From the IMG/VR virus record IMGVR_UViG_3300043015_002513, positions 1 through 20,259 of that record: a DNA stretch of 20,259 bases. One strand, 5' to 3'. Positions 3,869-11,107 of the stretch are shown here, piece after piece; positions within the stretch are counted from its first letter, which is position 1, and every line of letters starts with the position of its first letter. Below the pieces are notes generated by a model. The model was not told the origin of the DNA. It saw only the letters and a list, made by a program, of their open reading frames with translations, and did no database searches. Source of the stretch: a virus. A program made the position numbers and the translations under genes.

Positions 3869-6800
3869 GTGGCAAATCCTTTTGACTTTACAGATCCCTT
3901 AAGACTTTCAGCAGAAGAGTTAGAAAAAGAAGAGGAAGAATTTCCAGAACCTTCTTTGGGAGAGGGTGTAGAAGAAAACTACGGTCAGTTTGATTTTAAT
4001 GACCCATTAAAAGGTGAGCGTATAGACCCATATACAAACACAGGACCCAAGCCAGAAGACTTTGCAGACACACCAATTGGAAAAGTTGGAAATTTCTTTG
4101 GCGATGTTTTTATAAAACCTTTCGCAGGGGCAATGGCTGAGGCAGAAGAAAGATATCCGGACTCACCAATAGAAAATATACGCTATGGCTTAGATATAGT
4201 TAAAGCTACAGCATTTAAAGAAAACACACAAAAAATATTTTCTGCTTTCAAGCTTGGTTCAGCAGAACAAATGGACGACATCCTCAAAGGCAAAAAACCT
4301 ATTGGAATTTCTAGTCCATATGGAGCCTCTGGTTTTTCAGACCTTTATAATATGAAATTGCAGTTAAAAGCAAAAGAAGATTATAACAACGATGAGTCAT
4401 ATAGAAAAGAAGTTGATGACACTCTTGCTAAAGCACAAGAAGAGGGCTTGAAAGAATTTAAAAAAATTGACAAAGCCATAGCTAAAAAAAGAGCCGATAA
4501 TAATATAGGTCCATACGGAAGCTCTATCTCTAGCGGAGTAGAGAGCTTAGCAATAATAGGCACCGGAATGGCAGTAAATTATGCCAGTGGAGGTGCTGCT
4601 TTTCCAGCAGTTACTGGAGGAACGCTTACATATTTTGGATTAATGACTGGTGCGGCATCATATTCAGAAGCAAGACAGCAAGGTCTTCCTCACGAATCAG
4701 CTCTTGGCTACGCTAGTATAAACAGTTTACTTGAAGTTGGTACAGAGGCTGTTCCTGTAATGAGATTTTTATCTCCAGGATCAAGAGGCACTATAAAAGA
4801 TATTTTTAAAAGAGATCTTACAACTGTTGGAATTGATGTTAGCATGGAAAATGTTAACTCTGTTTTACAAGAACTTAACTCGGTTTGGTTTGATCTAGAT
4901 TCAGAGCTCAAGACTGCTTTTGATAATGCAAACAATCCTCTATATGAAGGAAGATCTGTAAGTGAGGTTTTGGTAGATATTGCTGGACACACAACTTTAG
5001 CATCTATAGTAGCCTCTGGGTCCATAGCAGCATTTAGAACTACAGGCGGTGTTGTTTATAGTGAGGATGTTAAGACATTTATAAGAAACCAGAAAGACAA
5101 TCCAGAACTAGAGTTATTTATTGAAGATTTTAATAATAACGTAAATAATCTACAACTTAATTACAATGCAATAGATAGTGCTTCTAGAACATTATTAGAC
5201 CCAAACACTGATGGAAAGGGCTGGACAGCAGATGAGATTATTGCATTAGAATATTTTAATCAGCCATTTATTGATTACAGAAAACCCCTGGTAGTTGGAG
5301 AAGAGGGTCGTGTTTCACAGCCAGATGATTATGCGGAAACCTTAGAGCTAAAATTTCCTCCAGTTAAAGAGCCTGGTTTTAATTTTGTAGATCCATTAAA
5401 TTCTGGAGTAGAGAAAAAAGTTGCAGGATCAAAAACATCTGAAATAGATTTAGATCTTTCTCCTATAATAACTGAAAGAGTCAATAATGCTACAAACATT
5501 CTTGAATTAGATTTACCCTCAAGCCCAACCCTAAATATAGATTTAATTAAAAATGACTCCTATGACGCAAAAGAAATAGATTTAACAAAAAGCCTAATAG
5601 TTGACAGCAGAACATTTGAAGAAAAGTTTTTACTAGAGCCCAATGGTGAAGAGAAATATTATAGATTTAGAGATCTTAATACAGAGGAGGCAACAAATGC
5701 ATCTAAAAGTATTATTGATTTAAGCAAGGCAGGAATGCCAATTGATATATTTTCTGATTTAGATTTTATAGGAGCACATGTAAGAGACAATAGATATAAA
5801 ACCTATGAGACATCTTATGGTGTTTATATGCCCACATTAAAGGGAATATCTTTTTCTCCTATATCTGGTATTGCTAACTTAAACTTTCAAAACAACCTGG
5901 GTTCTAAGTTAAATTTAAGATCAACAATGGCACACGAAATGGGACACCATATTGATTTTACTATAGGAAGAAACCCAAGCATTGATGCAAATATATTACA
6001 ACCAGTAACGTCTGAATCACCATTATTTGATTTACCAACATTTAAATATAATGAGGCAAATAACACCCTCGATATTGAAGATGGTACGGGTGGTCAGGTT
6101 ATGCAAGAGGCAATCAAAATTTTTAACGAAAGTGAAAAGGGTAAATATTATGATGGAAACCTATTAAGGTATCCTTTTAATGAAATGATTTCTTTAAATA
6201 ATAATATGACCCAGCCGATACAAAGAATGATTAAGGCAGAGGTCTTTGGTCAATTACACGAATTATATTATACTAATAGATCATTGCTTGAGGAGAAGGC
6301 TCCGACAGCATTAAAATTAATAGAGGACTTAAACGATGCAATATCAATTGACGGAACTACAAAGAAAGCTGAGAGAGTACAACTCGCTTTTCAATCACCC
6401 CGTGCCGAGCGAGGTGTTGAGGTTCGAGCCAGAGATAGAGATCTTGGACAAGATCAACCAGGCGATAGCATCCCAGAAACCAGTCGTAGAGTGGATGGAG
6501 AGGTCCAGCCTACAGACGGGGACCGTGTTCGACCTGAAGTACCAGATTTAAGACAAGTAGGAACAACCGGTCAGGTTGTGGGAGCTCCAGAGGGAATGGA
6601 CTCCAAACAAAAAGTAGGTGCTCTCAGAAGAAAAATGAGAGGGCTTGCAAAAGAAGGAGTGTCTCAAAGATTCTGGTATGAACAAAGCGGTCAAGCACTT
6701 TTAGATATAACAAACAACAACAAAGAAGATGCAGATAAGCTTGCACAGGTTATTGCCATAACTTCACCAGGAACACCGGTAGAGGCTAACTTTAATTATG

Positions 6801-9800
6801 CATTACAAGCATACTATCAATATGCCGCCGGAGAAACAGTAAAGACTGGAAGATTTCCTCAAGCAATGAGTGAAAAAATAGTTAATGTTTTTGAAGGCAA
6901 GGATTGGGGAGGAAGAAAAACTAACGAATTCTATAACAACATTATGAGAGTTATAGATCCAACTAGAACTCAAGGTGTTACGGTTGATGTCTGGATGGTT
7001 AGAGCTTTCGGTTTTGATACGGACGCACCAACAAACGCTCAATATTCTTTTGTAGAGAATGAAATACAAAAAATAAGTAATCAACTTGGATGGGAGCCGC
7101 AGCAGGTTCAAGCAGCAATATGGACATCTCAAAAAGCAAGACAAGAAAAAACTGATGTAAATGCAGCTGGTTTTAATTATGCCAACGCTCTAGAAAAATC
7201 ACTTGGTCAAATAAGCTGGGAGTCTATCCCTGGAGCAACATCTGCACATATGCAAGAGATGTTTAATGCTCCATATGAACAGCTTCAAGAATATCATGTT
7301 GCAATATCAAAAGCCTTACAAGACGAAAACGGAATAGACTTTATAGCCAACAGGTTGGGAATATTATCACCAGGAATTGTTGAGGCACCAGGATTTTCTG
7401 AGGGAAAAGTAAGCCCCGGATCTCAAACAGAAGTTGCTCTTACCAAAGTATATAAGGCTGACCCAAAAACAGAATTTGCAAAACTAGAGCCAGCAGCTGA
7501 AGATCTTGTAAAAGCCTACTCAGCAGCACTTGGAATCTTATTAAAACAAGACGGCGTTGGTTACCATAAACCCTTCTTTCAAAAGGGTATAGCAAAAACA
7601 AAATTAAATGGTATGGATATAGACATAGGCAGACCATTAACCGAAAATGAAACACGAATGCTTGCAGAAGCATTAGAAAAAGAATCTGGAATAAAAGATT
7701 ATAATCCTGTTGGTACAAGCAGGGGAGCAAGAGTAATTAATTTCTCATATCTTGATATACCAAACTTAAAATTTAAAAAGATTGTAAACAATGTATTAAA
7801 TGAGTTACAATTTGAAAATAACGAAGATGTTGTTCTTGGACAATTTGCGTCTAGTGAAGGATATCTTTCTAACGACTGGAGTAAAAACAAAAATGGCGAA
7901 AGTTACATTGAAAGTATTAGAGGAATCTCACCCGATCTTCAAGGAAGGGTTGAAAATATCATCAGGGAGCTCAAATCGAGAATTGATGAAGTCGATCAAA
8001 CCTTCTCAGAAAAGTATGGATGGACAAGAGATGAATCAATTAACTCAGAATACAAAGGACCAGCAGACCTAACACCACCAACCTTAGCTAAAAAGGTTTT
8101 ACCAGAAGAATCTCCAGACTTTAATATATACGAAACACTTACAGCAAACGATGCGTCTGTTATGTTTCAAGCATTCTCATTTTTTCAAGAACAAGCTGTA
8201 GATAAACTTGATAGACTTAAAGAGTTTGAGAAAAAGTTTTCAGAGTTTATAGACCCACAAGAAATGAAAAGACTTTCTGTAATAAGAAAGACAGATGTAT
8301 ATCATGGAAAAGTTAAATATGGTATGGATAATGCTGTAGAGGCTACAACAAAAATTAGTGAATTTTTAAATAACAAAAATATATCCAGGGAAGACTTTAA
8401 TATATTCCTTAAAAATCTACATGCACCAGAAAGAAATGCAAAGATCAATGAAAAATATAATGCTGAGCTTCCGGGACTAGAGGCAGAACTTTTAGCTGAA
8501 ACAGACAAGAAGAAAAGAACTGTTTTAAAAGGAAAGATCACAAAAAGAAAAAATGTTTTAGCAAAATATCAAGACAGTGGTTCCGGAATAAAGACAGACA
8601 AGGCAATTGAAACTTTAAATAAATTTGGAATTAAATTTAATGAAAAAACAGGGAAGGCAACAGCAAACAATCAAAAAGGAAAAGATCTTTTAGCTGCTTT
8701 CAAATTGTTAGAAGCGTATCAACAAGACACATTAAATATATATAGAGATCAGGATCTTGTAGACGAACAAACTTTAGAAGACTGGGATAGCTCATATAAA
8801 TACTATGTACCTTTAGTGGGTTTCTCGGTTGAAACTATTGAAGGCAGTTCTCCAAAAACAGGCGGAGGGGGTATAAGTGTTTTTGGAAGAGAGGTTATGG
8901 AAGCTAAGGGAAGAACATCAGAGTCTGGACCCCCACTTGAACAAGCAGTTATAAGAAGACAGTCTGCCGTGGTTCGCGGGGAGAAAAACTTTGTTGACAA
9001 GTCTCTTGCTGAATTGGTTAATAAATTCCCAGATAAAAAAATATGGCAAGTAAGGGGTGTAAAAAGAAATGAAAGACCTCACGCATGGGATGGAAGAGAA
9101 TCAAAGATAGGGTTCAAAGAAGGCGGCAAACAAAAGTTTATTGTTATCAGAGATGAAAGACTTGCCAAAGGATTAGACTCTTGGGGTAATAACAGCTTGC
9201 ATTGGAGCCTTGGTGTAATGAGGGGTTTAACAGGAACACTTTCAAGTTTATATACATCACTTGCTCCTGAGTTTATTGTTGGAAACTTCTTTAGAGATTA
9301 CCAAACAGGCTATTTTAATTTAATTAAAGAACAAGAAATAAAAGATGGAAGAGCTCAAGGATTGAATTTAACAAAGGCATTTAAACCAAATAATATTGCT
9401 AAAACAATGAGACAGCTTAAAGATGGCTATGTCACCAGAACTCTTAAAAATAAAGATCCAGAAACATATAAGTTGTTTGATGCTTTTAGAAAATTTGGCG
9501 GTCAAACTGGGTATGTAAACGCTAAAGATATAGATCAAATAGAAAAAGCAATGGAAGAGATGTCGCTTGCTCACTCCGGGAAAAAAAGAATTAGTGCCAA
9601 AAAGCTATATAACTCCACATTCCAGTTTGTCGAAAACATTAACAATGCTGTAGAAAACACTGCAAGATTTGCAGTATTTAAAGAATATATAAATGCAGCT
9701 GGAGGAGCTAATAAGGCATCTAAACAGGACTTTGATGATGCAGCAGTTCTTGCCAAAAACCTTACAATAAACTTTAACAGATCAGGAAAACTTGGACCAT

Positions 9801-11107
9801 TGGTCAACTCCTTTTATATATTTGCAAATGCATCCGTTCAGGGGTCTGTAAATATGTTTAGAGGAATGAATCCTATTGGATTCCAAGACGGTAAAATGGT
9901 TTGGTCTGGAATGTCTAAGTCTTCAAGAAATATAATAGGAGGCTTAACCGGTCTTGGTGCGTTAGTACAAATGTATTCCATGCTTGTTTCAGATGAAGAT
10001 GAAGATGGAAAACTTCTTATAGATAAAATACCAGATCATGAAAAAGAAAGGTTTATGGTTGTTCCAATTCCTGGAGTTAAATACAGAGATGGAGAAATAA
10101 AATTTAATAAATACAGTAGAAGATATACTGTAGATGGAAAACCTTTTGCTCTAGCAATACCTTTACCCTATGGCTATAACATATTCTATAACCTTGGAAG
10201 AATGGGTGTAGAGGTTTCAAGTAAGCCCGTTCTTGGTTATCAAAAACGAACTCCTATAGAAATGAGTAAAGACATGGCTGGAATAATATCTGGTGCATTT
10301 TCTCCAGTAGGAATAGGATATTCACAAGATCAAGGTATTGATATAGTTAAAACAATTGTTCCATCAATAGCCAAACCAATCTATGAATCTAGGGTTAATG
10401 AAAAATGGACCGGTGCTCCAGTTTATAAAGAACAATTTCCAGGAACAGCAGAGATTCCACGGTCTTCTAGAAAATTAAAAAACACCAATGAGTTTTATAG
10501 AAAATTTACAATGTTGATCAACGAAAAAACTGATGGAGGAAAGTTTGATAAAGGAATGATAGATTGGAGCCCAGATAAAATGAAGTTCTATTTGCAATCA
10601 TATCTTGGTGGTATGTACACAATGGCTGAAAGAACTGCTTCAATAAGCAACAAGGTTTATGACAACTTAGTTCTGGGAACTGATCAAAAAATAGAATTAA
10701 ACGAAACACCATTTATAAGAGTTTTAACAGCAGAGCCAATGGATTATGTTGATGCATCTAACTTCTATGATAATAAAGAGATGATAGTTCAAAAGGCTGG
10801 AGAGTACCTTAATTACAAAAAAGATAATGATAAAGCGGCTTTACAAGACTATATTGAAAGAACTGGTTTTGATAAAGAATACCTATCTCTTAATGATGCT
10901 GCAAAGAAAGCCAACTCAGAATTAAGAAAACTAGGATCAAGGGAAAAAACCATTCTCAACCTTAGAGAAAAAGATTATGTTAGATATGTAAGACTATCAG
11001 ACGAGATAGATATGCAAAGGCACGACATACACCTTAAATATAATAAGATTTTTACTAGAGGTCTTGAGAAAATAGAAAAGAAAAAGAAGAAAAAGGAGCA
11101 GGACTAG
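3869..11107 (+). CDS. Giant polyvalent internal-virion protein (zinc metallopeptidase site, DUF7178-like and LPD38-like regions)
   Basis: 2412 residues from GTG 3869, three bases after the previous stop. In order: a Glu/Pro-rich N-terminus with F-[DN]-F-x-D-P-L motifs at residues 5-11 and 41-47, and a third at 504-510; a hydrophobic Gly/Ala domain (about 223-275) and another hydrophobic stretch (about 371-388); a metallopeptidase-like domain with HEMGH at 689-693 and a likely third zinc ligand E791 in KAEVFGQL; an Arg/Asp/Gln-rich linker (about 833-893); a helical domain starting FWYEQSGQALLDI (935 to about 1090) that I recall as DUF7178; coiled-coil stretches (about 1480-1560); a C-terminal region (about 1785-2150) with APEFIVGNFFRDYQTGYFNL and NFNRSGKLGPLVNSFYIFAN that matches the LPD38 type; a Lys-rich end. 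Such multi-domain polyvalent proteins are packaged and injected with phage DNA. No lytic transglycosylase motif is seen. Targets of the peptidase are unknown. Confidence 0.75.
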   Translation: MANPFDFTDPLRLSAEELEKEEEEFPEPSLGEGVEENYGQFDFNDPLKGERIDPYTNTGPKPEDFADTPIGKVGNFFGDVFIKPFAGAMAEAEERYPDSPIENIRYGLDIVKATAFKENTQKIFSAFKLGSAEQMDDILKGKKPIGISSPYGASGFSDLYNMKLQLKAKEDYNNDESYRKEVDDTLAKAQEEGLKEFKKIDKAIAKKRADNNIGPYGSSISSGVESLAIIGTGMAVNYASGGAAFPAVTGGTLTYFGLMTGAASYSEARQQGLPHESALGYASINSLLEVGTEAVPVMRFLSPGSRGTIKDIFKRDLTTVGIDVSMENVNSVLQELNSVWFDLDSELKTAFDNANNPLYEGRSVSEVLVDIAGHTTLASIVASGSIAAFRTTGGVVYSEDVKTFIRNQKDNPELELFIEDFNNNVNNLQLNYNAIDSASRTLLDPNTDGKGWTADEIIALEYFNQPFIDYRKPLVVGEEGRVSQPDDYAETLELKFPPVKEPGFNFVDPLNSGVEKKVAGSKTSEIDLDLSPIITERVNNATNILELDLPSSPTLNIDLIKNDSYDAKEIDLTKSLIVDSRTFEEKFLLEPNGEEKYYRFRDLNTEEATNASKSIIDLSKAGMPIDIFSDLDFIGAHVRDNRYKTYETSYGVYMPTLKGISFSPISGIANLNFQNNLGSKLNLRSTMAHEMGHHIDFTIGRNPSIDANILQPVTSESPLFDLPTFKYNEANNTLDIEDGTGGQVMQEAIKIFNESEKGKYYDGNLLRYPFNEMISLNNNMTQPIQRMIKAEVFGQLHELYYTNRSLLEEKAPTALKLIEDLNDAISIDGTTKKAERVQLAFQSPRAERGVEVRARDRDLGQDQPGDSIPETSRRVDGEVQPTDGDRVRPEVPDLRQVGTTGQVVGAPEGMDSKQKVGALRRKMRGLAKEGVSQRFWYEQSGQALLDITNNNKEDADKLAQVIAITSPGTPVEANFNYALQAYYQYAAGETVKTGRFPQAMSEKIVNVFEGKDWGGRKTNEFYNNIMRVIDPTRTQGVTVDVWMVRAFGFDTDAPTNAQYSFVENEIQKISNQLGWEPQQVQAAIWTSQKARQEKTDVNAAGFNYANALEKSLGQISWESIPGATSAHMQEMFNAPYEQLQEYHVAISKALQDENGIDFIANRLGILSPGIVEAPGFSEGKVSPGSQTEVALTKVYKADPKTEFAKLEPAAEDLVKAYSAALGILLKQDGVGYHKPFFQKGIAKTKLNGMDIDIGRPLTENETRMLAEALEKESGIKDYNPVGTSRGARVINFSYLDIPNLKFKKIVNNVLNELQFENNEDVVLGQFASSEGYLSNDWSKNKNGESYIESIRGISPDLQGRVENIIRELKSRIDEVDQTFSEKYGWTRDESINSEYKGPADLTPPTLAKKVLPEESPDFNIYETLTANDASVMFQAFSFFQEQAVDKLDRLKEFEKKFSEFIDPQEMKRLSVIRKTDVYHGKVKYGMDNAVEATTKISEFLNNKNISREDFNIFLKNLHAPERNAKINEKYNAELPGLEAELLAETDKKKRTVLKGKITKRKNVLAKYQDSGSGIKTDKAIETLNKFGIKFNEKTGKATANNQKGKDLLAAFKLLEAYQQDTLNIYRDQDLVDEQTLEDWDSSYKYYVPLVGFSVETIEGSSPKTGGGGISVFGREVMEAKGRTSESGPPLEQAVIRRQSAVVRGEKNFVDKSLAELVNKFPDKKIWQVRGVKRNERPHAWDGRESKIGFKEGGKQKFIVIRDERLAKGLDSWGNNSLHWSLGVMRGLTGTLSSLYTSLAPEFIVGNFFRDYQTGYFNLIKEQEIKDGRAQGLNLTKAFKPNNIAKTMRQLKDGYVTRTLKNKDPETYKLFDAFRKFGGQTGYVNAKDIDQIEKAMEEMSLAHSGKKRISAKKLYNSTFQFVENINNAVENTARFAVFKEYINAAGGANKASKQDFDDAAVLAKNLTINFNRSGKLGPLVNSFYIFANASVQGSVNMFRGMNPIGFQDGKMVWSGMSKSSRNIIGGLTGLGALVQMYSMLVSDEDEDGKLLIDKIPDHEKERFMVVPIPGVKYRDGEIKFNKYSRRYTVDGKPFALAIPLPYGYNIFYNLGRMGVEVSSKPVLGYQKRTPIEMSKDMAGIISGAFSPVGIGYSQDQGIDIVKTIVPSIAKPIYESRVNEKWTGAPVYKEQFPGTAEIPRSSRKLKNTNEFYRKFTMLINEKTDGGKFDKGMIDWSPDKMKFYLQSYLGGMYTMAERTASISNKVYDNLVLGTDQKIELNETPFIRVLTAEPMDYVDASNFYDNKEMIVQKAGEYLNYKKDNDKAALQDYIERTGFDKEYLSLNDAAKKANSELRKLGSREKTILNLREKDYVRYVRLSDEIDMQRHDIHLKYNKIFTRGLEKIEKKKKKKEQD
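6366..6545 (+). other. High-GC segment with codon bias of a different reading frame, inside the giant gene
   Basis: In the frame whose codons start at 6366, 49 of 60 third positions are G or C, unlike the AT-rich third positions of surrounding genes. That frame stays open from ATG 6336 to TAA 6549-6551 and has ordinary protein composition (for example VLRFEPEIEILDKINQAIAS). In the giant gene's own frame the same bases encode an Arg/Asp/Gln/Pro-rich linker with six CGN arginine codons, whereas AGA is used almost everywhere else. I do not call the alternative frame a gene, as no ribosome site precedes ATG 6336. It looks like captured coding DNA read out of frame. Confidence 0.55.

Follow-up and report, generated by a model that had tools for sequence, protein, structure and literature searches.

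Overprinted overlapping genes have mostly been described in small RNA and ssDNA viruses. In such overlaps the novel frame has atypical codon usage, as reviewed in PMC8227390. Among phages, the Rz/Rz1 spanin genes of lambda and its relatives provide a case of a small +1 gene embedded inside another phage gene and often missed by gene callers (PMC6139136). Phage polyvalent proteins with zincin-like metallopeptidase domains were described by Iyer et al. in 2017 (PMC5512222), a paper in which a word search found no mention of overlapping genes, and a DarB-like giant of Burkholderia phage JC1 has been found in virions (PMC9144972). In the literature that we searched, the coverage of which is incomplete, we found no mention of genes nested in these giants. 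Nested +1 phage genes (Rz1) and viral overprinting are already known; nested genes in giant polyvalent genes appear to be new.

The window analyzed in this study is a stretch of viral DNA of 20,259 nucleotides (IMG/VR record IMGVR_UViG_3300043015_002513), and all of its features discussed below are on the plus strand. Its giant gene (3869-11107) is an open reading frame of 2412 aa with Pfam matches above cut-off to LPD38 (10022-10714, 3e-27) and DUF7178 (6668-7129, giant residues 934-1087, 4e-13). The protein falls in PHROG 14770/616, of unknown function, and has homologues among K249-type Vibrio phage giants and among Burkholderia phage giants annotated as DarB-like. A HEMGH motif of the HExxH type (5933-5947) marks a zincin-like region, and its first H, E and last H do not vary among the aligned relatives. 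With its large, multidomain architecture of LPD-type and zincin-like domains, the latter assigned by motif, the gene product qualifies by sequence as a phage polyvalent protein. It is thus of the same host gene type as the proteins of Iyer et al., a multidomain giant combining an HExxH region with LPD38, but differs in that the linker between its zincin and DUF7178 regions (6335-6552), polar and rich in Arg, Asp, Gln and Pro, is dual-coded. In one of the related contigs, 3300046167_000572 (L010, L023 and L050), the first 550 residues of the giant gene are spread over three frames, reflecting either an assembly error or a broken gene.

The first-pass annotation had drawn attention to 6366-6545, reporting that 49 of 60 third positions of an alternative frame are G or C. 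This count is correct and goes beyond chance. No other 60-codon window in the 7.2-kb giant gene reaches a higher value, the mean at that position being 48%; the G+C of the segment as a whole (97/180) lies at the 99.9th percentile. The reported openness of the alternative frame also holds, with the +1 frame open over 6333-6548 and the ORF with its ATG at 6336-6551. The same is true of the unusual arginine codons, since 6 of the 10 in the segment are CGN versus 7 of 98 elsewhere in the giant gene, and of the placement in a linker, the HExxH motif lying upstream and DUF7178 downstream. The reverse strand, described there as open too, is not: its three frames contain 1, 1 and 2 stops over the segment in the window and are not consistently open in relatives either, which rules out a reverse-strand gene. 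Two explanations had been offered, namely capture of a coding segment from high-GC DNA followed by its out-of-frame reading, or retention of an overlapping gene.

The overlapping ORF, nested gene 1 (6336-6551), runs from ATG to stop entirely within the giant gene in its +1 frame and would encode a helical protein of 71 aa (71 codons). A Shine-Dalgarno-like AGAGGA (6322-6327) lies 8 nt 5' of the ATG. Sites of the AGGA/GAGAG type occur at the same place in most relatives, being weak or absent in L092 and L122, and predicted anti-Shine-Dalgarno pairing at the nested starts is better than at the giants' other +1 ATGs (p = 7e-6). IMG/VR was searched for relatives with three queries, namely the giant protein, its zincin region and the alternative-frame peptide, and each giant found to carry the zincin-peptidase region (about 25 distinct sequences, all of them from metagenomic contigs) has the nested ORF complete and at the same +1 offset. 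An exception is L109, where the match covers 30 residues only and is probably not homologous. Giants beyond the zincin-bearing ones lack the region altogether.

Conservation of the small protein extends over large distances. Its identity to the window copy ranges from 99% down to about 24%, and its length is about 70-79 codons in most copies, the longest being that of L108 with an extended tail. Identity of the giant protein falls to about 39% (L013) and 27-38% (L040/L060), with the zincin regions of deeper relatives at 27-34%; start, stop and length of the nested ORF are kept across these very divergent sequences. In L013 the small protein is 59% identical whereas the giant is 39% identical overall. 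The giant frame drifts over the overlap while the small protein is kept, which is the opposite of relatives preserving the linker and breaking the alternative frame, the pattern named in the first-pass annotation as evidence against capture from a coding source. No giant-frame stop occurs over the overlap in any relative, and the small-protein tree largely follows the giant tree.

Substitution patterns point to purifying selection on the nested frame. In a 15-sequence giant alignment, no other 60-codon window is free of +1 stops in 15/15 sequences, the mean elsewhere being 4.4 stops. Differences at giant-synonymous sites drop to 0.04-0.14 in the overlap versus about 0.45 elsewhere, with one other comparable trough in the profile. 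Within the near clade, changes that are synonymous in the giant frame and nonsynonymous in the nested frame are reduced (0.11 vs 0.63-0.68 in the flanks), those that are nested-synonymous and giant-nonsynonymous are raised (0.43 vs 0.09-0.16), and the nonsynonymous/synonymous-type ratio of the giant frame reaches 1.32 in the linker as against 0.08-0.20 in the flanks. Nine independent sister pairs were compared, every one of which forms a clade in the tree of the upstream region; all nine show substitutions in the overlap shifted to the nested wobble base. Pooled over these pairs, changes at giant codon positions 1/2/3 number 176/99/87 inside the overlap as against 4112/2607/8974 outside it (chi-square 160, p about 2e-35), a result far beyond any correction for the many tests run.

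The strong constraint on giant-frame synonymous sites over about 220 nt could also be produced by an RNA or DNA element, such as a structure or a regulatory or packaging site, with the open frame as its by-product. Suppression of change is uneven, however: nested third positions vary freely (0.27 per site vs 0.21 in the flank) while the other positions are held, and start, stop and length are maintained at great divergence. We regard it as exceedingly improbable. A +1 ribosomal frameshift from the giant frame, yielding a truncated zincin protein with an alternative C-terminal tail, would fit the offset being always +1; it is very unlikely given that conservation begins at the ATG, that the Shine-Dalgarno site precedes this ATG, and that a +1 stop lies 1-4 codons upstream of it in the copies checked. 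Taken at the level of sequence, 6336-6551 is very probably a real gene that encodes a protein in the +1 frame, inside the giant polyvalent gene, a statement about its existence and not its function. The second of the two explanations offered initially, that an overlapping gene is kept, is strongly supported by the intact +1 frame and the purifying selection on it in relatives. Translation would be initiated from the internal Shine-Dalgarno site of the giant mRNA, and the small protein would thereby be made together with the giant.

Capture of a high-GC gene piece, now serving only as an out-of-frame linker with the alternative frame as a fossil, has in its favor that codon usage of this frame is foreign to the genome (GC3 of 0.73 vs 0.23). 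But a fossil would decay, whereas all relatives have kept the frame intact, under purifying selection. Nested-frame GC3 is 0.53-0.73 versus 0.20-0.31 in all relatives, and the wobble positions stay GC-rich in these low-GC genomes despite turning over fast. No donor homologue was found in phage records, bacterial genome contigs, PHROGs or Pfam, and neither the small protein nor the C-terminal part of the giant, used as query, returned a relative from bacterial genome contigs. We therefore give almost no credence to the capture reading. High GC3 is a consequence of the frame offset, which places the nested wobble base on the first base of the giant codon; throughout 6366-6545 the alternative-frame third positions are exactly the giant-frame first positions. 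When the nested amino acids were fixed and codons redrawn 20,000 times from genome codon usage, the giant frame was open in at most 0.06% of the synonymous redraws, which hardly ever attained the observed GC3. The linker is also more hydrophilic than the redraws in several lineages, though not in all (below 0.001 in L054, L055 and L057; 0.007 in the window). In codon usage the giant linker tracks the remainder of the gene (r 0.42-0.71), and the nested frame shows no correlation with it (r about 0). From the redraws and these correlations, the signature reflects dual coding, with the giant frame probably the older one and nested gene 1 overprinted later, in what would have been a tolerant inter-domain linker. 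As no zincin giant without the nested gene was found, this order of origin is read from codon usage alone.

The reverse order has also been considered, in which separate giant segments were fused across an older small gene that survived in the other frame. The position of the nested gene at a domain boundary, and the exchange between relatives of the cassette that follows it, agree with such a history. It is the giant linker, though, that matches the genome in codon usage and the nested frame that does not, and no stand-alone copy of nested gene 1 outside the giant gene was found in the collections searched; this order is unlikely. Later overprinting of nested gene 1 would share with the overprinted viral genes a +1 internal overlap, atypical codon usage of the novel frame, and a polar or disordered partner. 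It would differ from them in its host, a 7-kb gene of a dsDNA phage with apparently two nested genes in one host gene.

The second of these, nested gene 2 (7893-8072), would encode 59 aa in the +1 frame (MAKVTLKVLEESHPIFKEG...) and was recognized from the alignment by its synonymous trough. The trough, at about 7880-8030, is the second of only two in the giant gene and lies inside a +1 ORF with a conserved ATG at 7893; the open frame at 7800-8072 had been chosen as a negative control, and contained this second constrained region. A Shine-Dalgarno-like GGAG (7878-7881) is located 11 nt 5' of the ATG, and the ribosome site is strong in 18/18 sequences, with predicted pairing of -5.7 to -10.9 kcal/mol. 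The trough recurs in independent pairs. Since both frames are conserved here, the periodicity test is weaker (53/31/60, p = 8e-4). Within the close clade the trough extends further upstream, which may reflect recombination. On these sequence data, a second nested gene is probable. Just before it, around 7790-7890 of the window and in L044, L046 and L059, two alleles of the giant segment are common to different clades, suggesting recombination.

Other giants contain further +1 ORFs. A third, unrelated one (MKQEQNKESKSSKK..., MKQEQ...) takes the place of nested gene 2 in L057 (9639-9803), L058 (9633-9794) and L062 (9486-9629), where the cassette after nested gene 1 differs; its substitutions show a shifted periodicity (22/12/11, L062 vs L057). 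Two Vibrio phage giants, K249 (L042, 9646-9795) and D171 (L111, 2764-2946), have +1-open stretches with few synonymous differences, in sequences whose similarity is too high for a judgment. DarB-like giants of Burkholderia phages carry a +1 ORF (MTETQLLELLTKALQNKAP...) at 6372-6695 in DC1 (L114), at 6363-6686 in BcepIL02 (L113), and from 6001 in both JC1 (L133) and BcepMigl (L134). It spans about 107-112 aa in a D/R/G-rich linker and is preceded in DC1 and BcepIL02 by an AAGGAGG site; in these phages the only feature annotated under the match is the giant gene itself. Between DC1 and JC1, 78% of nested residues are shared as against about 60% of the giant residues there, and the synonymous difference is 0.08 compared with a mean of 0.20. 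The Burkholderia Lessievirus giants (BcepIL02, DC1 and JC1) are homologous to the window's giant in the C-terminal LPD38 part; their N-terminal domains differ, and their nested proteins show no sequence similarity beyond chance to the one described here. By sequence, this would be an independent case, and it is suggestive only, because the phages are closely related, their GC-rich genomes commonly have long open frames, and other stretches of the giant are equally low in synonymous difference.

As for the small protein itself, an AlphaFold2 model of nested protein 1 is helical with a moderate pLDDT of 73 (about 78-86 in the core), and a deeper alignment gave no better model (72.7). Fold searches with this model found nothing in the PDB and no significant structural or sequence match; the top BFVD match, A0A8S5MVT4 (E 0.16, probability 0.97, 25% identity), is a lead only. 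Matches in Pfam and PHROGs (FliJ, 0.034; phrog_8169, 0.03) were judged to be due to chance. The likeness to Rz1 is that of a complete small +1 gene within another phage gene. Rz1, however, is a secreted lipoprotein encoded in an i-spanin gene, whereas the protein here is encoded in a giant polyvalent gene and has no cysteine, none being present among the 16 nested proteins counted. An embedded o-spanin of the Rz1 type is ruled out by the absent lipobox cysteine and the polyvalent giant as host gene. Our best guess, a doubtful one drawn from its constant location and its strict association with the zincin region, is that the product might be a small helical partner of the giant that governs, for example, how the giant is folded, packaged or processed by the neighboring zincin-like domain. 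Alternatively, it could be a virion component in its own right or a protein that interacts with the host.

Considering the two nested genes per giant here, the third family at a swapped cassette and the independent one in Burkholderia Lessievirus giants, it is conceivable, if somewhat short of likely, that giant polyvalent phage genes systematically nest small +1 genes in inter-domain linkers, as dedicated partners controlling giant assembly, processing or injection. Standard annotation leaves such nested genes out. Should dual-coded linkers be a regular feature of giant polyvalent genes, a class of conserved phage proteins would have gone unnoticed so far, and deletions or truncations in these giants would strike two proteins at once. 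The GC-rich codon signature in a low-GC gene is possible without foreign DNA, which calls for caution in compositional scans. The locus also offers a clear system for studying how one sequence meets the needs of a structured small protein as well as those of a polar linker across great evolutionary distances.
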